Positions 1,018 through 40,475 of a stretch of 41,637 nucleotides of DNA are shown piece after piece. This stretch comes from a virus. The stretch lies in IMG/VR virus record IMGVR_UViG_3300046737_000136, positions 1 to 41,637 of that record, one strand, 5' to 3'. The notes below the pieces were generated by a model. It was given only the letters and a program-made list of their open reading frames with translations. It had not been told where the DNA came from and searched no databases. Every line of letters begins with the position of its first letter. Position 1 is the first letter of the stretch. A program made the position numbers and the translations under genes.

Positions 1018-1680
1018 TCATGCTCCCATCTCGGCGGTCTCCCGCGTCTCTCCCGCAGCCCGGCGCTCAGCCGCTTCCCGTGCCAGCCCACGCACATCCC
1101 CGACGTAGTGCAGGCGTGGACCGCGCGCCTTGACGTCTTCGCCCTGCTCGGGTTCGGTCCACGGCACGATGTGCTCGCCGAGCCGGTAGTAGGTCCGCAG
1201 CTTGGCCTCGTGCAGGACCTCGCCGCTGTAGCTGGTGTGCGGGGTGGCCCAGGCGCGGACGGTCTTGACGTTGATGCTGAGCGCGTCGGCGATGCCGCGT
1301 GCGGTCCAGGCGAGGTCGCTGCCGCTGACCTGCTCGTCGAGCCAGATCCGCCGGTCGGCCTGCTCGTACTTCGCGCCGCACGTCCGGCAGCGTCCAGTGT
1401 GTGCGCCGGCCACCCCGTAGACGTCGCCGTCGCAGGTGACGGTCAGCAGCATGGTGTCGCCGAACTCGTCGTCCGCTTCGACCTCAACGCCCGCCCCGCA
1501 TGGCCCCAGGTACCGCCGGTCAGCCGGCCCTTCGACTAGCCCACGCAGCCGTGACGCGCAGTCCCGGATCTCCGCGAACACGTCCGCCGCGTACGGCCCT
1601 CCCTGCTCAGTCCTGGCATGGGCCAGCCAGGGCAGTTGTGCGGCGAGGAAGCGGGCGGCGGCGATAAGTGGGTCGGTCAT
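1018..1680 (-). CDS. HTH and zinc-knuckle protein of unknown role
   Basis: A 220-residue protein. The middle has a zinc pair, CRTCGAKYEQADRR, followed by a probable helix-turn-helix (WTARGIADALSINVKTVRAWA, about residues 125-150) that suggests DNA binding. A further Cys lies in TVTCDGD, consistent with a C-x14-CxxC zinc site. Its ATG overlaps the stop of the methyltransferase gene by four bases (ATGA), so the two are probably co-translated. Proteins of this build are frequent in actinophage early regions; I do not know a defined function. Confidence 0.7.
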   Translation of the reverse strand: MTDPLIAAARFLAAQLPWLAHARTEQGGPYAADVFAEIRDCASRLRGLVEGPADRRYLGPCGAGVEVEADDEFGDTMLLTVTCDGDVYGVAGAHTGRCRTCGAKYEQADRRIWLDEQVSGSDLAWTARGIADALSINVKTVRAWATPHTSYSGEVLHEAKLRTYYRLGEHIVPWTEPEQGEDVKARGPRLHYVGDVRGLAREAAERRAAGETRETAEMGA

Positions 1681-2465
1681 GCGGGTGCTCCCAACTCGCC
1701 GAAGATGTCACTCTGTTCGCCCGATCCCGGCTGCATGGCGGCGACCGCGAGGCGCTTGGCTGCCACCTCGGCGTAGTGCGCGCTCAGCTCAGCGCCGATG
1801 AACCGCCGTCCCTCGATGATCGCGGCGACCCCGGTTGTTCCTGATCCGCAGAACGGGTCGAGCACTACGCCATCCGCTGGGCTGATCCGGACCAGCGAGC
1901 GGAGCACGTCGACGGGCTTCTGGGTGATGTGCTCGCGGTCGCGCGGCGGGTGCGCCTGATAGAAGCCGGGAAGCGTCTCGTGTCCCTCGCCGGGCCGGGG
2001 TCCGGCTGTGCCCCATACGGCGTACTCGCAGGTGTTGGCGAAGCGGCCCTGGGTGTTGCGGCCTGCGGGTTTGTGCCAGGGGACGATGCCGCGCCAGACC
2101 CAGCCGCCCGACTGGAGCATGTCGGTCGTGGTGGGCAGTTGCCGCCAGTCGGTGAACAGCACGCAGGCCGCGCCGGGTTTGGCGATGCGCAGGCATTCGC
2201 TGAGCCAGAGCGTGCACCAGTAGCCGTAGGCGCGCTGGTCACGGTTGTCGCCGGTGAAGTCGGCCAGCTCCTGGCTGCCGCTGGCCGAGTTGACGTACTT
2301 GATGCGCGTGCCGTCCATCCGGTCGCCGCGCATCATGCCGCCGCTGGAGTACGGCGGGTCGGTGATAAGGGCGTCAACGCTGGCGTCGGGTAGCTCGCGG
2401 AGCACGGCCAGGGCGTCTCCTCGGTAGAGCGTCGCTCGCGGTCCGGCGTAGTACGGCTCGACCAT
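1677..2465 (-). CDS. DNA N4/N6 methyltransferase
   Basis: A 262-residue adenine-N6 or cytosine-N4 methyltransferase. The catalytic motif DPPY is at residues 36-39 and the AdoMet-binding motif FCGSGTT at about 205-211, preceded by TQKPVDVLRSL. Catalytic before AdoMet motif is the beta-class order. The short space between motifs leaves room for only a small recognition region. No restriction partner is visible nearby, so it is likely a solitary enzyme protecting phage DNA or altering regulation. The ATG overlaps the stop of the upstream zinc-protein gene by one base (TGATG). Confidence 0.9.
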   Translation of the reverse strand: MVEPYYAGPRATLYRGDALAVLRELPDASVDALITDPPYSSGGMMRGDRMDGTRIKYVNSASGSQELADFTGDNRDQRAYGYWCTLWLSECLRIAKPGAACVLFTDWRQLPTTTDMLQSGGWVWRGIVPWHKPAGRNTQGRFANTCEYAVWGTAGPRPGEGHETLPGFYQAHPPRDREHITQKPVDVLRSLVRISPADGVVLDPFCGSGTTGVAAIIEGRRFIGAELSAHYAEVAAKRLAVAAMQPGSGEQSDIFGELGAPA

Positions 2466-3094
2466 CAGAGCGTCTCCAGGGGCTCGGGGTAGGGCTCGGG
2501 GACCAACTCGGGCCGTTCGGCCGTCTGTGGCGTTCCCGGGCTGGCGGAGTGGGCATCTGCGCGGTTCTGCCCGCCGTCGAAGCGCCAGATGCCTGCGTCG
2601 GTGCGGTGGATGCCGGGCATGGTGTTGGGGTCGAGGCACTGTCCGCCGCGCCGGTGGCGGTCGAAGCCGCGTACGGAGCCGAAGGTTTCGTGGCAGACGG
2701 AGCAGTGGGCCTGGCTGGTGGTGGGTTTGATGCAGGACTTGATGCAGGGCATGTGGAGTCTCATTCCTCGGCGGACGGCGATGCGGATGGCGGGTCGGGC
2801 GATGGTGTCGAGGGCTTCGTCCAGCACGTCCATCGCGTCGTCGTTGCCGGGTGACCGTGAGCTGGGTTTGCTGCTGCCGCCCGACCCGCGCCGTACGAGC
2901 CCAGCGGCCACCAGCCTGGCGTCGCCCGTGAGCCGGATGATCTCGGCCAGCGACTCGGCGGCCCAGCGAACATGCTGGTCGCACACGATTCCGTCCTCGG
3001 CCAACCTGGGCAGGCAGCCGAGGCAGTCGTCGGTGCACGTGGGCAGGTGGCGATTGCGGATGCGGCAGCCGGGGATCGCGCAGAGCTGGGTCAC
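2465..3094 (-). CDS. FDXHR-type zinc-binding protein with extra N-terminal Cys domain
   Basis: This 209-residue protein has two Cys-rich parts. The N-terminal part (about 1-45) carries CAIPGC, CTDDCLGC and CDQH, likely zinc ligands. The C-terminal part (about 130-172) has CSVCHETF, then GFDRHRRGGQCLDP and GIW, which matches the FDXHR phage zinc-protein signature. The middle is a helical, Arg-rich linker. Start overlaps the previous stop (GTGA). Nucleic-acid binding is the natural guess, but no function is established for FDXHR proteins to my knowledge. The FDXHR part usually stands alone in small proteins, so the N-terminal addition is notable. Confidence 0.75.
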   Translation of the reverse strand: MTQLCAIPGCRIRNRHLPTCTDDCLGCLPRLAEDGIVCDQHVRWAAESLAEIIRLTGDARLVAAGLVRRGSGGSSKPSSRSPGNDDAMDVLDEALDTIARPAIRIAVRRGMRLHMPCIKSCIKPTTSQAHCSVCHETFGSVRGFDRHRRGGQCLDPNTMPGIHRTDAGIWRFDGGQNRADAHSASPGTPQTAERPELVPEPYPEPLETL

Positions 3095-4824: not shown

Positions 4825-5135
4825 AGCTGGGCCTCCGTACGCCACGTGAGCCCGGTGTGTTCGTCCTTGTGCTCGGCGTGCGGGCCGGAGAGCGTGCAGC
4901 GGATCCAGTAGTTGTCCGTCTGCTCGGGGGTGAAGTGATCCCACGACCGGGTCTCCTCGGCGCACGCGCGCAGCGGTTGTGCGTTGAGCAGCGTGCAGAT
5001 CCGTTCGGCGAGTTCCTGGTCCCCGTTGACGACGACGGCGACGAGCTGGGCTTGCGGGGGAACTCCTGGGCAGGGGATGTCGCCCTCGCGGACGATGGTG
5101 ACGCCCCAGTGGTTGCCGGTGCGGTAGGTGCTCAC
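4821..5135 (-). CDS. Unknown early protein
   Basis: A 104-residue protein with an N-terminal beta strand pair (HWGVTIVREGDIPCPG), a helix with ELAERICTLLNA in the middle, and a C-terminal strand-rich part with YWIRCTLSGPHAEHKDEHTGLTW. The Cys and His residues in the last third could hold a metal. GTG start overlaps the previous stop. No family recognised. Confidence 0.6.
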   Translation of the reverse strand: MSTYRTGNHWGVTIVREGDIPCPGVPPQAQLVAVVVNGDQELAERICTLLNAQPLRACAEETRSWDHFTPEQTDNYWIRCTLSGPHAEHKDEHTGLTWRTEAQL

Positions 5136-5392
5136 GCGTGCTCGGCCTCCGATCGGGCGTTGCAGTGGCAGCCGCACGGGTGCGAGACGGCCAGTTCGGC
5201 GGGGGATACGTGCCCAACGCCTGCATGCTCGGCGTCCTCGTCGTCCATCCAGGTGTGCGGCCAATTGGCGCACTGGCCGGATTGGCAGGGCCAGCACTTC
5301 ACGTAGCAGACGATGGCGTTGCCCGCCTTGAGCGCGGCCACGATCTCGGCGGCCACCTCAGGCGTGAGTTTCGGCTGCTCGGGCGTGGTCAC
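5132..5392 (-). CDS. Small Cys-rich protein
   Basis: An 86-residue protein. A helical N-terminus (TPEVAAEIVAALKAGNAIV) is followed by six Cys in CYVKCWPCQSGQC and CGCHC, consistent with one or two zinc sites. GTG start in a GTGA overlap. It belongs to the long series of small Cys-pair proteins in this operon. No family recognised. Confidence 0.6.
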   Translation of the reverse strand: MTTPEQPKLTPEVAAEIVAALKAGNAIVCYVKCWPCQSGQCANWPHTWMDDEDAEHAGVGHVSPAELAVSHPCGCHCNARSEAEHA

Positions 5393-5811
5393 GGCGTCTC
5401 CTTGGGCTCGGCGGCGAGGCGGGCTTGGTGCTCGGCGGCGGCGACACCCGCGCAGGTGAAGGCATCCGGGTCGACGGTCATCCGATGCTCCGATGGCAGC
5501 TCGAACGGCGTGCGGAAGCAGCAGCGGGTGGTGCCGTAGCCCTCGCGCATCAGGTGCACGACCTCGGCGGGAGGTTCGGCGTGCTCGGCTGGGCAGGTGC
5601 CCTCGCCGAAGTCCCAGCTGCCGAAGTCGGGGCAGGTCGGCTCGTAGCAGCGGGGCGGCTCCCAGCGCCATTCATGGTCTGCCTCGCGCATTGGCCACTG
5701 GCCATTGGCATTCGCGTGCGGGTCTTCGTGCCCTTCGGGACCGGCGCAGTCCAGGCCTTGCGCGTCGGCGGCAGAGCACTGGCGGTGATCGGTGTTGTCG
5801 TAGAGCCTCAC
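5389..5811 (-). CDS. Cys-rich early protein of unknown function
   Basis: A 140-residue protein with scattered Cys/His ligands: CSAADAQGLDCAGPEGHEDPH at the start, CYEPTCPDFG and CPAEH in the middle, and RCCF later. The pattern suggests two treble-clef-like or knuckle zinc sites. GTG start overlapping the preceding stop. No family recognised. Confidence 0.6.
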   Translation of the reverse strand: MRLYDNTDHRQCSAADAQGLDCAGPEGHEDPHANANGQWPMREADHEWRWEPPRCYEPTCPDFGSWDFGEGTCPAEHAEPPAEVVHLMREGYGTTRCCFRTPFELPSEHRMTVDPDAFTCAGVAAAEHQARLAAEPKETP

Positions 5812-6071: not shown

Positions 6072-6280
6072 CACGCCTCCTTGGCGAGTCGGGGTGGCCT
6101 GCGCGTTTCGCGGTCGCGGAACTCGGCGGCCGGGATGTTCTCGGGCTCCCGGTCGTGGTTCGCGATGGCCTCGCTGCGGCAGAGGCGGCAGTTGGTCTGA
6201 AGCTCTGACGGGTGGCGGCGGCAGCGTGGTGCGTCGCGGTCGAGGTAGGGGCTGGGGTCGTCCAGCCAGTGGTCGGTCAC
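6071..6280 (-). CDS. Small CxxC protein
   Basis: A 69-residue hydrophilic protein with CRRHPSELQTNCRLC (likely zinc site, residues 20-34) and a charged C-terminus. Acts, if the zinc reading is right, as a small nucleic-acid or protein adaptor. GTG start overlaps the HNH gene stop. Confidence 0.6.
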   Translation of the reverse strand: MTDHWLDDPSPYLDRDAPRCRRHPSELQTNCRLCRSEAIANHDREPENIPAAEFRDRETRRPPRLAKEA

Positions 6281-6645
6281 GGCAGCACCGGGAACAGCGC
6301 CACCTCGCCACGGGCCACCCGCGCGGCGGCCAGCGTCGTGCGCCGGGTCTCGGCGTGATGGTCGCGGTCGTAGCGCAGGTGGCATCCCTGGCACATGGCG
6401 CGCAGGTTGGCCGGGTGGACGTTCTCCGGCGTGTGGTCGAGGTGGGCAACGGTGAGCACGACGGTCGACCCGGTACGCGGGTGCGGCTGGCCGTTGATCG
6501 CGTCGCACCGGTCCTTCCACCAGTAGGCGTTCTCGCACTCGCCTCGGCACTCGCACTGACCTAGCGCGCGGATCCAGCGGATGACCCAGGAGATTGCGGG
6601 CCACTCGGCCGGGTAGCGCTTGCGGTTCTCGGGACGGATGGGCAT
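6277..6645 (-). CDS. HNH endonuclease-like protein
   Basis: A 122-residue HNH protein. Features in order: CECRGEC (31-37), a likely first zinc knuckle; VAHLDH (H68, D70, H71) as the HNH core; PANLRAMC with N80; and CQGCH (85-89) closing the zinc site. Such proteins sit often near actinophage replication genes and probably nick or cut DNA. ATG at 6645 overlaps the preceding stop (TGATG) and has GGGAGG seven bases upstream, so the TTG two codons earlier is unlikely to be used. It follows the replication-initiator-like gene directly. Confidence 0.85.
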   Translation of the reverse strand: MPIRPENRKRYPAEWPAISWVIRWIRALGQCECRGECENAYWWKDRCDAINGQPHPRTGSTVVLTVAHLDHTPENVHPANLRAMCQGCHLRYDRDHHAETRRTTLAAARVARGEVALFPVLP

Positions 6646-7418
6646 CAGCAAACCTCCCTGGTGAAGAAGTCATGGACGGTGGCGAGCAGCGGCGGGTCCG
6701 GCGCGGCGCGTGTGCGCGGGAGTGAGTTGAGCTGTTGGTCTTGGGCTGGGGTGAGTGCGTCGGAGAGTGAGTTCTGCTCGTCGGTCCCAGGAGCCGAAGG
6801 CGAGTGGGGTCGCCAGGGGTCTGGGGGCGGCGCGCCCCCAGTGGTCGGTCGCAGTTCTCGTGCTCGGTGATAGTTGGACGGTGGGGGCTCACCAGGGATG
6901 AGCGCTGATGGAGCGTCGAATGAGCGCTGATAGCCGTCATTAGCGCTCGCCATAGTGAGCGCTGAAGTTTCGTCGTGATCCGTAGCATTAGCGCTCGCCT
7001 TAGGTGAGCGCTGAACGCGCATCCGGCGGCCTTTCTGGCCGGACTGGTTCGAGCTGTTCACCTCGTCGATGATCTTTCGGTATTCGGCCGTCTCGGGAAT
7101 GTCGAGGTGCGCGTACCTGTCGGGATCGAGGATCAGCCGGTACTCGTCGGCGAGGCCCTTCTTGTGGTTCCCGGCCTTCACCAGCTCGATCCAGCCGACG
7201 TCGCGCAGCCAGGCGAGGTACCGGCGCGCGGTGCTGTAGCCGACCTCGCAGTCGGCGGCCAAGCGGGCCACGCCGCACTTGATGTCCCGGCCGTTCTTGT
7301 CGGCGTACGAGCTGACGGTGAGCGCGGCCTGCTTACGCTCGCGACCTATGCGGGCGCGGCGGACGAGGGCGTTCCACTTGTGGGGCTGCGCGCCGATGTC
7401 TTCGGCATCAGCGCTCAT
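6645..7418 (-). CDS. Replication-initiator-like winged-helix protein
   Basis: A 257-residue protein with an N-terminal winged helix (about residues 30-100: RERKQAALTVSSYADKNGRDIKCGVARLAADCEVGYSTARRYLAWL, then a wing and DEYRLIL). The rest is low-complexity, hydrophilic and Pro-rich. The build resembles lambda O-type initiators, in which an N-terminal DNA-binding domain recognises repeats in the gene's own middle. Six 10-bp repeats are found in the linker part. I chose the ATG at 7418, where a seventh repeat covers the start codon; ATGs at 7445 and 7484 in frame are alternatives. No clear Shine-Dalgarno sequence. First gene of operon 2. A transcription-factor role cannot be excluded. Confidence 0.7.
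   Translation of the reverse strand: MSADAEDIGAQPHKWNALVRRARIGRERKQAALTVSSYADKNGRDIKCGVARLAADCEVGYSTARRYLAWLRDVGWIELVKAGNHKKGLADEYRLILDPDRYAHLDIPETAEYRKIIDEVNSSNQSGQKGRRMRVQRSPKASANATDHDETSALTMASANDGYQRSFDAPSALIPGEPPPSNYHRARELRPTTGGAPPPDPWRPHSPSAPGTDEQNSLSDALTPAQDQQLNSLPRTRAAPDPPLLATVHDFFTREVC
6899..7014. repeat. Iteron cluster, candidate replication origin
   Basis: Six 10-bp elements share the palindromic core AGCGCT. TGAGCGCTGA occurs at 6899-6908, 6921-6930, 6956-6965 and 7005-7014. The inverted variant TTAGCGCTCG occurs at 6940-6949 and 6988-6997. A seventh copy, TCAGCGCTCA, the exact reverse complement of the main form, is at 7408-7417 at the start codon. The cluster lies in the low-complexity coding part of the initiator-like gene and looks richer in A/T than its surroundings, as in lambda-type origins. 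Confidence 0.7.
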
Positions 7419-7484
7419 CGCGCGTACACCTGTTCGGTGGCGCATTGCACGGTGTTGGTACTTGCGCACAGAGGGCGCGGGCAT

Positions 7485-17280: not shown

Positions 17281-17564
17281 GCCGCCACCGCCCCGCGCTC
17301 GCGGTCGGCCATGAACTGGTGCGCCGCGGACCGGCGGATCCGGATCCGGGCCCGGCTTCCGCCCGGCCGGCGCAGGTCGATCCAGGGGAGTTCCTCGGCG
17401 TAGATCGCGGCGTAGACCGTCTCTCGGTCGACGTGCCACAGCTCCGCGACCTCGATGACCGTGAGGTACTCGTCGTCGAAGCGGCCGGGGCCGGTCGGCG
17501 GCTTGGGCTGCCCTGGCGGGTCGCTCGGCGGCGGAGTTCCGTCCGGAACCGTCCGCCGCCTCAT
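17277..17564 (-). CDS. Excisionase-type HTH protein
   Basis: A 95-residue protein with a Pro-rich N-terminus (about 1-28) and a MerR/excisionase-like helix-turn-helix (YLTVIEVAELWHVDRETVYAAIYAEELPWIDLR, about 33-66), then the R-I-R-I-R-R-S segment typical of the wing. It follows the leftward switch gene directly (ATGA overlap), a common place for a Cro-like or excision regulator. It could be the excisionase, but the AlpA-like genes at 20597 and 21580 are rivals. Confidence 0.75.
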   Translation of the reverse strand: MRRRTVPDGTPPPSDPPGQPKPPTGPGRFDDEYLTVIEVAELWHVDRETVYAAIYAEELPWIDLRRPGGSRARIRIRRSAAHQFMADRERGAVAA

Positions 17565-17842
17565 GCCGCATCACCGGCGGCGACCTGCTCGACGATCTCG
17601 AAGAGCTGCTCGAAGGTGACGTTGGGCATCTCGGTCTTGCACGCGGCGATGAACTTCTCGCCGACACCGACGCGGTGGTTGCGCAGCTGCGACAGGTGGA
17701 CCTCGCCGATACCGAGGCGCTCGGCCAGTTCCTTCTTTGACGACGCGCCGATGACGGCCGCCGCCAGCTTGTCGAACTCCTCGGTCCTGAGCCGCAGCGT
17801 TGGCCTGCCGCTGGCTCTCGCTGGCGTGCCGTTAGCTCTCAT
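17561..17842 (-). CDS. HTH regulator, leftward arm of the switch
   Basis: A 93-residue XRE-like DNA-binding protein: a polar N-terminus, then RLRTEEFDKLAAAVIGASSKKELAERLGIGEVHLSQLRNHRVGVGEKFIAACKTEMP (about 18-75), with the recognition helix near GIGEVHLSQLRNHR. It is the first gene of early operon 1 and probably the Cro-like or early regulator. I start at ATG 17842, because TATGTT (17855-17850) fits a -10 box seven bases before it and TTGCGC lies 17 bases further upstream; the ATG at 17854 would lie within that -10. This implies a leaderless mRNA. Confidence 0.8.
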   Translation of the reverse strand: MRANGTPARASGRPTLRLRTEEFDKLAAAVIGASSKKELAERLGIGEVHLSQLRNHRVGVGEKFIAACKTEMPNVTFEQLFEIVEQVAAGDAA

Positions 17843-18059
17843 GCAAACGAACATAGGCTCTCACCAAAACCAGCGCAACCCCCGATTGGCACGGTCTTTA
17901 GGCTTGAGTTGCGTACGTAGATGTCTTAAGTTTGTGTGCATGCAAACGTGGGAACAGCGGCCCCGGACCAAGGCCAGACGCGTAACTGCAGGCAGACGAC
18001 ACAACAGGCCACACACGGCACGCTCGGTAGGTAGCTATGGTTTGCGCATGCGCAAACCA
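17840..18059. promoter_or_regulatory. Divergent switch region with GTTTGC operators
   Basis: Between the divergent HTH genes are three related sites. First, GTTTGCATG on the minus strand at 17848-17840, at the leftward start codon. Second, GTTTGTGTGCATGCAAAC (17930-17947), with arms GTTTG/CAAAC. Third, TTTGCGCATGCGCAAA (18041-18056), extending to a perfect 22-bp palindrome (18038-18059) that covers the rightward start codon. Leftward promoter: TTGCGC, 17 bases, TATGTT. Rightward: TATGGT (18036-18041) six bases before ATG, without a clear -35. A weak alternative plus-strand pair is TTGAGT (17904) and TAAGTT (17927). Confidence 0.7.
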
Positions 18060-18452
18060 GCGGCAACGCCTGGCTTCCCCGAATACCTGCGCGAGGCCAT
18101 CCCGCGGATGGGCTACCAGACGCCGACCGACTTCGCCCGGGCCGCAGGCATCAGCCCGAGCGTCGTGCTGCGCTGGCTAAACGGCCAGACCCGGCCGCTC
18201 GTGCCGCTGCTGGAGCGGGTCGCCCCGCACCTCGGCGCGAAACTCAGCACCCTCGTCCGGATCGCTTACCCCGAAATCGACGAGGGCCTCCCGATCGAGG
18301 ACGCCCCGACCTTGCACCCGCTGGCCGCCGAGCTGCAGCGTCGTCTCGGCCCCAAGTCGACCCTGCCGGCCGCCGAGCAGGAGGTGTTGACCCGGATCGT
18401 CGACAGCGTGCTGACCCCGTACCGCTCCCGATCCACGCCGAGGGCAGGCTGA
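18048..18452 (+). CDS. HTH repressor-like protein, rightward arm of the switch
   Basis: A 134-residue protein with an XRE helix-turn-helix (REAIPRMGYQTPTDFARAAGISPSVVLRWLNGQTRPLVPLLERVAPHLG, about 16-65) and a helical C-terminal part probably for dimerisation. It is the best candidate for the immunity repressor because it faces away from the early genes and is joined to the integrase gene: its stop and the integrase ATG share a base (TGATG). No ribosome binding site; a perfect palindrome spans the start codon, suggesting autoregulation. No LexA-type cleavage domain is visible. Confidence 0.75.
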   Translation: MRKPAATPGFPEYLREAIPRMGYQTPTDFARAAGISPSVVLRWLNGQTRPLVPLLERVAPHLGAKLSTLVRIAYPEIDEGLPIEDAPTLHPLAAELQRRLGPKSTLPAAEQEVLTRIVDSVLTPYRSRSTPRAG

Positions 18453-39031: not shown

Positions 39032-40475
39032 CGGCTTGCCGCACGAACAGGGTGTCGGCGAAGTGGGCCTCATGCTCCCAGCGGATCGCCGGGACGAAGC
39101 CGACCTTCCCGAGTGCCTCCACCGCGTCCGGCCAGAACGCTGCGTACAGGTCCCGGGAAAGCTCCTGCGTCTCCACGATGACCAACTCGACGTTGGTCAG
39201 ATCGGCGGAGGCCAGCGCCTCGAGCTCGGTGCCCTGCGTGTCGACGACCAGGACGTTCGCCGCATGCTCGGCCTGGATGTCGCACAAGGGCTCGACGTCC
39301 ACCTCGAACGTCTCGGTCGTGGGTACACCGGCGTCCGCGCGCAGGCCGCTGAACACGGTGTCGACGGCGCGATGGAAGGTAGCCGTGCCGATCATGGCCC
39401 CCACCGCGATTTCGACCACCTCGCAGTCGGGGAAGGTCTCGCGCAGGTAAGCGGCGTTGACCGGGTCCGGCTCGACCAGGGTGATGTCCTCGATCCCGCA
39501 CTTTCGGTAGATCGGCACCTCTTCGCCCTTATGCGCGCCGACATGCATGAGCGAAGTCGGCTTCAGGCCGAGCTCGGCCAGCGCGTCCGGCAGCAGGTCG
39601 AACGTCCACGCCTGCTCGCGGGTCATCGCGACCCGCTTGAGCCCGGAAATGTCCGGGCGGCGCTCCAGGATGGCCAGGGCGGCCCGCTCCCGGACGTAGA
39701 AGTCCTCCGACACCCAGATCGGCTTCAGGTGCGTCGTCTTCACCCGGGTATCGACGTACACCGGGATGTCCAGGGCGCCGGCGCGGACGCAGAACGACAG
39801 GTCCTCGCTGAACAGCTGCTGCGTGCTGGGGTTCGGCACCCGGTCGTACCAGGTCCCGAACTTGTCGACCATGCGCTGAAGGACGCTGCGGTGGATCAGG
39901 ATGCACGCCGAGCCGGTCGCGTGGCACTGGGTGACCGTGTCGCGCGGGTAGTCCCAGCGCACCGCGTACCCGGACTGGCCCTCCACGGTGATCCAGTCGT
40001 AGATGACCGGGGTCGGCTGGACCCGGCGCCCACCCATCCCGTCGGACTCGATCTCCTGCTGCGAGAAACACAGCGCCCCGACGATCGGCCGCTCCACCGG
40101 ATCCGCCGCCTCGAGGAGCTTCTCCAGCGCGTCCTCGGGGAAGCCCATGTCGGTGTCGATCCAGAACAGCCAGTCGGCGTCCGGGTAGTCGTTGAGGAAG
40201 TCGTAGGCGGCCTGGTTGCGGGCCTGGATCAGCCCGCCGGTGCCGTAGCGCAGGGCCAGGAACCCACCGCGGCCGTCGCCGAGCCGCTGGCTGGTCTGGG
40301 CGTCGTAGCCGATCAGCTGGACCATCGACCGGTGCCACGAGTAGGCAACCTCATTGCCGCACACGTAGGCCAGGACGACCGCGTCCTGCTGCTCGCGGGC
40401 CGGTGGGCACGGCTCAGGACCCGCCTCGTGGATGGTGTTGCAGTGCGCGTCGTGCGCGTAGGTCGGCTCAGCCAC
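39021..40475 (-). CDS. Glycosyltransferase-FkbM methyltransferase fusion
   Basis: A 484-residue two-domain protein. Residues about 30-300 are a GT-A-like glycosyltransferase: TGGLIQARNQAAYDFL, DWLFWIDTDMGFPEDALEKL with D107-T-D109, ATGSACILIHRSVL and SEDLSFCVRAG (223-233), with H249. Residues about 308-480 are an FkbM-type methyltransferase: HVGAHKGEE (311-319), VEPDP (334-338) and VDTQGTELEAL (411-421), as seen in sugar O-methyltransferases. The fused product suggests that a sugar is added and then methylated. GTG at 40475 overlaps the preceding stop. Lying directly after the capsid genes, a virion glycoprotein is the likely target. Confidence 0.85.
   Translation of the reverse strand: MAEPTYAHDAHCNTIHEAGPEPCPPAREQQDAVVLAYVCGNEVAYSWHRSMVQLIGYDAQTSQRLGDGRGGFLALRYGTGGLIQARNQAAYDFLNDYPDADWLFWIDTDMGFPEDALEKLLEAADPVERPIVGALCFSQQEIESDGMGGRRVQPTPVIYDWITVEGQSGYAVRWDYPRDTVTQCHATGSACILIHRSVLQRMVDKFGTWYDRVPNPSTQQLFSEDLSFCVRAGALDIPVYVDTRVKTTHLKPIWVSEDFYVRERAALAILERRPDISGLKRVAMTREQAWTFDLLPDALAELGLKPTSLMHVGAHKGEEVPIYRKCGIEDITLVEPDPVNAAYLRETFPDCEVVEIAVGAMIGTATFHRAVDTVFSGLRADAGVPTTETFEVDVEPLCDIQAEHAANVLVVDTQGTELEALASADLTNVELVIVETQELSRDLYAAFWPDAVEALGKVGFVPAIRWEHEAHFADTLFVRQADGE

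Follow-up and report, generated by a model that had tools for sequence, protein, structure and literature searches.

The question raised by this locus is whether a cluster of short repeats lying inside an initiator-like gene forms a replication origin of the lambda type or serves some other purpose. For most temperate phages of actinobacteria, we are aware of no mapped lytic origin. The window analyzed here is the whole of the viral record IMGVR_UViG_3300046737_000136 (41,637 bp, about 69% GC). It encodes an integrase, a RecT-like protein and a tape-measure protein, and was therefore regarded as a temperate tailed phage. The host is probably a high-GC bacterium, an actinomycete, since homologues of the initiator-like protein sit in Micromonospora and mycobacterial elements. 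A DNA methyltransferase gene (phrog_67, 1.5e-69) and a repressor-like gene adjoining the integrase were also seen in the window (1677–3038, 17319–18452). GC skew along the window gave no origin signal.

The initiator-like gene (6645–7418, minus strand) is predicted to encode a protein of 257 aa consisting of an N-terminal winged helix, a Ser/Ala-rich linker whose coding sequence holds the iterons, and a low-complexity C-terminal part. The ATG at 7418–7416 was favored as start codon over that of a longer mechanical ORF beginning at 7484, because the homologues begin there. The assignment was based on PHROG matches, i.e., phrog_270 (replication initiation, 1e-6) and phrog_391 (O-like, 5e-4), and on 53–61% identity of the N-terminal domain to those of the homologues L009, L016, and L018. 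Besides, the ORF matched phrog_26991 (2.8e-5, residues 35–130 of the full ORF), and some PHROG matches of the window protein and its homologues were transcription regulators. Searches of Pfam and NCBIfam gave nothing above cut-off. An AlphaFold2 model of the winged-helix DNA-binding domain with a long C-terminal helix (7010–7418, minus strand) was confident (mean pLDDT 85), showing helices at residues 12–21, 26–37, 49–57, 61–74, and 110–135 and wing strands at 77–81/92–95. The helix of residues 61–74, YSTARRYLAWLRDV (7197–7238, minus strand), is the putative recognition helix, as suggested by the model and by covariation with the iterons. Foldseek matches among viral proteins included phage Min27 protein O (E 8e-5) and also a replication initiator, and those in the PDB were weak, most of them to MarR-like proteins or DNA-binding proteins of archaea and some to initiator domains. 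The likeness of the window protein to named initiators is weak and passes through a widespread fold. A Cys-rich C-terminal motif present in several relatives was absent from the window protein, which ends in a low-complexity tail, and the copy in the window could therefore be partly degenerate. An HNH endonuclease gene (6277–6645, minus strand; phrog_1571, E 8e-38) overlaps the stop codon of the initiator gene, and such a gene was also found as its neighbor in L018.

The decamer TGAGCGCTGA was found in four copies on the plus strand at 6899–7014 and as an exact reverse copy on the minus strand at 7408–7417 (five in total), and TTAGCGCTCG in two copies at 6940 and 6988. Thus, the six decamers within 116 bp (6899–7014) and the seventh over the start codon that a sequence-only reading had described were confirmed. 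Shuffles of the window contained a mean of 0.15 (maximum 1) and 0.06 copies of the two decamers, respectively, and neither decamer occurred outside 6899–7417 in the record. The same reading had proposed a genome-wide count of the core AGCGCT, which was 19 against 15.6 expected over the window. This is background and not enrichment, so that the signal is the local cluster, and the bare hexamer was dropped as a measure. A 13-mer scan allowing three mismatches was near chance across the window as a whole. The core had been read as palindromic, which holds in this lineage but is not a property of the family: TGAGCGCTGA and TTAGCGCTCG are two orientations of one asymmetric, directional repeat, (A/T)TCAGCGCTCA(C/T), with the inverted partner ATTAGCGCTCGCC.

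Following the gene from its 5′ side, iteron a (TTCAGCGCTCACC, 7003–7015, minus strand) forms an inverted pair with iteron b (ATTAGCGCTCGCC, 6987–6999, plus strand), and iteron c (TTCAGCGCTCACT, 6954–6966, minus strand) forms one with iteron d (ATTAGCGCTCGCC, 6939–6951, plus strand). These are followed by the penultimate direct copy, iteron e (ATCAGCGCTCATT, 6919–6931, minus strand), and, 22 bp from it, by the last direct copy, iteron f (ATCAGCGCTCATC, 6897–6909, minus strand). The array is closed by a terminal element (6880–6894, plus strand) in which an inverted half-iteron, GCTCACC, is fused to GGTGGG; on the coding strand of the gene it reads GGTGAGCCCCCACC. The seventh iteron over the start codon (ATCAGCGCTCATC, 7407–7419, plus strand) is the same as iteron f, and the two match across 14 bp.

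A scan of viral and genome contigs with the window protein as single query gave no relatives. The first homologue, L009, was obtained by a DNA-pattern scan and showed 61% identity in the N-terminal domain and the same iterons in the same place; most other matches of that scan looked unrelated (L006–L008, L010–L015). Later scans added L016, L018, L027, L028, and 31 loci related to mycobacterial prophages. Annotated relatives were phiGD34-2, prophi62-1, IdentityCrisis, the 10.9-kb JSGardenL2, and a linear Micromonospora plasmid, and their annotated neighboring genes include a sliding clamp and a DnaQ-like subunit. The homologues, like the window protein, matched replication-initiation PHROGs, and the window protein showed about 35% identity to that of L020. 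A comparison set of 32 distinct DNA-binding domains was assembled from viral contigs, M. abscessus prophages, a 10.9-kb Mycolicibacterium phage, and the Micromonospora plasmid. Within 500 bp after the domain, 28 of these 32 domains, several of which are closely related and therefore do not count as independent cases, were followed by a repeat array that was reached by none of 200 shuffles; the remaining four (L040, L042, L046, and L049) had weaker arrays. The repeat sequence is lineage-specific, and the array lies directly behind the winged-helix domain in nearly all homologues, with in-gene iterons in the window, L009, L016, L018, L020, L021, L026, and others. L021 (OR387117.1), the 10.9-kb phage of Mycolicibacterium aichiense, has few structural genes and is satellite-like in size, and its homologous initiator carries CTCACGGGACAT iterons (4975–5411). 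No paper on M. aichiense phages as satellites was found in the open-licence literature.

Such repeats could in principle be a by-product of a repetitive protein linker, the DNA itself having no function. The linker is indeed of low complexity, and the 33-bp unit of the mycobacterial homologues is a multiple of three. However, the seven copies in the window use all three codon frames and both orientations, and codon shuffling with the protein kept fixed did not reproduce them (five identical 8-mers observed, at most four in 500 shuffles). Moreover, the array persists where it lies outside the gene: in three homologues (L019:6301–6520, L027:4330–4530, and L028:4330–4540) the coding sequence reaches no further than the first iteron and yields a bare winged helix of about 110–115 aa, and the array continues just downstream. 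The frame use and these three homologues contradict a reading by the protein linker alone, which we regard as scarcely credible, and the array was therefore concluded to be selected as DNA.

The layout of the array is fixed. The iterons are directional and in many lineages form inverted pairs, behind which stand two final direct copies, 21–23 bp apart in nearly all lineages compared. A few base pairs past the last of these lies half an iteron in the opposite orientation, which continues into CCCACC or a sequence very similar to it. This terminal element is conserved in form across the lineages compared, and its half-site (CTCA, GACA, ATCA, GTCA, or GAAC) varies with the iteron, being the same in both. 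Such agreement was found in all 13 sequences tested, with a chance of about 1–11% of shuffles for each single lineage, a test that describes rather than discovers since the half-sites were chosen by eye ahead of it. The tract past the terminal element is 44–54% AT in most relatives, about the top 5% of their loci, and in several of them it is poor in G. Exceptions are L045, L046, and the window, where the expected position of an unwinding tract (6830–6879, minus strand) is only 34% AT, ordinary for its genome; the array of the window is itself relatively AT-rich (42%, top 1.2%). A strong GC inverted repeat, CTGGGGGCGGCGCGCCCCCAG, lies shortly past the terminal element of the window (6821–6841), where the relatives are AT-rich. 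In many mycobacterial homologues (L020:4430–4480, L026:3430–3490, and other mycobacterial prophages) a palindrome, GTTACGTAAC, is conserved shortly downstream of the array.

Comparison between lineages showed that the recognition helix and the iteron vary together. With the rest of the domain controlled for, the partial Mantel r was 0.50 and none of 5000 permutations was as high, a figure that is optimistic because the half-sites were hand-aligned and the lineages are related. Besides, two prophage groups were found to share a C-terminal domain (95–98% identity) and to differ in the winged helix (about 50% identity) and in the repeats. For instance, L020 (phiGD34-2, an M. abscessus prophage) and L047 showed 98% identity between their C-terminal domains and 51% between their N-terminal domains, and their iterons are ACGACCGGACAC and ATCACCGGAAC, respectively. 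The winged-helix domain and the array thus seem to have moved as one cassette. Across the sequences compared, this suggests that a change of specificity in the initiator protein goes along with one in its site, similar to the situation in phage lambda.

The array edge could also be searched for at the DNA level. A pattern written from L018 and L021 (GGGACA, 15–17 bp, GGGACA, 3–9 bp, TGTCCCCC) was scanned against viral contigs and found in 25 contigs, among them L018 (as L071), which was recovered by construction. In 21 of the 25, a winged-helix or replication-initiation gene contains or adjoins the array; these represent far fewer than 21 independent families since 11 of the 13 contigs described last here belong to one homologous group. 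In eight contigs a protein matching the winged-helix profile adjoins the array (weakly matching in L073 and on the opposite strand in L085; L078 and L082 are the same sequence), and in 13 more the array lies inside genes that match replication-protein or O-like PHROGs or are homologous to such genes. Replication proteins of phrog_22470 with dense in-gene GGGACA/TGTCCC arrays form a separate homologous group (L062, L069, L070, L074, L075, L077, L079, L080, L081, L084, and L086). Like arrays with no assigned gene were seen in L065, L068, L076, and L083, those of L065 and L076 being very dense in GTCCC/GGGAC. An equivalent scan with the iteron type of the window matched only L009 and the L016 contig. 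It is conceivable, though we would not yet call it probable, that several initiator families share this edge layout as a general plan of in-initiator phage origins. The plan would comprise two direct iterons spaced by about 22 bp, half an iteron in inverted orientation a few base pairs on, a C-rich stretch, and in most cases an AT-richer tract. The DNA alone might then reveal the origin and its iteron specificity, which could be paired with a short recognition helix, and the initiator of L019, L027, and L028 would be no larger than the bare winged helix.

The iteron over the start codon had been taken by the sequence-only reading as a possible site of autoregulation. The only parallel is L016, with two copies around the start at a distance of 34 bp; the starts of L009 and L018 are free of copies. 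That this copy lets the initiator repress its own expression is thus a weak proposal. It also bears on the possibility that the whole array is an operator cluster and the winged-helix protein an autoregulating transcription regulator with no role in replication, as the fold is common to MarR/ArsR regulators and transcription regulators are among the PHROG matches. We consider this improbable, as the array lies 400–520 bp inside the gene and not at a promoter, the start site is not shared by L009 and L018, replication initiators rank first among the named PHROG matches, and 21 of the 25 contigs from the DNA-only search pointed to winged-helix or replication genes. Still less probable is a role in partition or incompatibility, with the array as a centromere, or in some other nucleoprotein element that maintains a prophage like a plasmid. 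Weak structural matches to the archaeal centromere-binding protein AspA and the homologue on the linear Micromonospora plasmid point in this direction, but the PHROG matches are replicative, no ParA-like protein was seen in a partial search of the proteins, and the integrase of the window implies that plasmid maintenance is not required.

Taken together, the window probably contains a lambda-type replication origin inside the gene of its own initiator. The winged-helix domain (residues about 12–95) would bind the iterons within the coding sequence of the linker that follows it, and each half of an inverted pair would probably take up one protomer. The functional edge of the array would consist of the last two direct iterons, about two helical turns apart, and the inverted terminal half-site, and local unwinding would be expected past this edge, in the AT-richer tract of the relatives. 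The host helicase might then be loaded; it is invoked because the phage seems to carry neither a helicase nor a loader. An origin and an initiator are thereby predicted in a set of actinobacterial temperate phages, including M. abscessus prophages and the 10.9-kb phage. The natural pairs of recognition helix and iteron, including the swap in an otherwise nearly unchanged protein, make binding specificity directly testable, and the conserved array edge is a concrete candidate site of double-helix opening.

Compared to lambda O and ori-lambda, the likeness lies in an initiator gene with an N-terminal DNA-binding domain and iterons in mid-gene. Lambda has four iterons at 39034–39118 inside O, at offsets 348–432 of 900, and those of the window are at about 403–521 of 774. 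A spacing of about two turns is common to lambda (starts 20, 24, and 23 bp apart) and the window (22 bp between the last two direct copies). In lambda an AT-rich tract follows the iterons (PMC7466680, on lambdoid Stx phages). Such a tract is found on the 3′ side in most relatives, as in lambda, but is missing in the window. Unlike those of lambda, the iterons of the window are asymmetric, occur in both orientations, end in a terminal inverted half-site, and belong to GC-rich genomes. Dimer binding, a further trait of the lambda initiator, would find an indirect counterpart here in the inverted iteron pairs and the covariation of helix and iteron. A search for Phage_rep_O (PF04492), which recovered the lambda control with E 2.5e-38, found nothing in the window or in six relatives, and lambda P (PF06992), PF01695, and PF03796 were also absent from them with positive controls run; no DnaB-type helicase or DnaC/IstB-type ATPase was found in this set. 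The window protein accordingly falls outside the Pfam-defined lambda O family. The earlier suggestion of lambda-like iterons inside an initiator is well supported in comparative terms by the PHROG matches, the layout in the homologues, the covariation of helix and iteron, and the natural swap of domain plus iterons, but does not extend to Phage_rep_O, lambda P, or the AT-rich tract.

Mycobacterial HTH proteins of phrog_26991 (phiGD34-2 gene 53 and IdentityCrisis gene 55) resemble the window protein in the linker iterons, the terminal element, and a winged helix that may be homologous, and differ from it in iteron sequence, in 33-bp units, and in a Cys-rich C-terminal domain; they are annotated merely as HTH proteins, and the PHROG is one of unknown function. 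For mycobacterial prophages with RepA, the authors suggested an origin upstream of or within repA (PMC7157519). By their description, these prophages share with the window an HTH initiator in actinobacterial phages, and that work, unlike the present case, deals with extrachromosomal prophage replication (PMC7157519). The plasmid initiators PDB 5kbj (a Rep-DNA complex), 4pql, and 4pta likewise have a winged-helix N-terminal domain, with a weak fold match (E 0.006–0.01). No paper on in-gene iterons in these phages was found in the open-licence literature. Beside these known systems, three features look new: lineage-specific iteron sets that are coupled to a recognition helix, the inverted half-site conserved at the end of the array, and initiators reduced to a bare winged helix.
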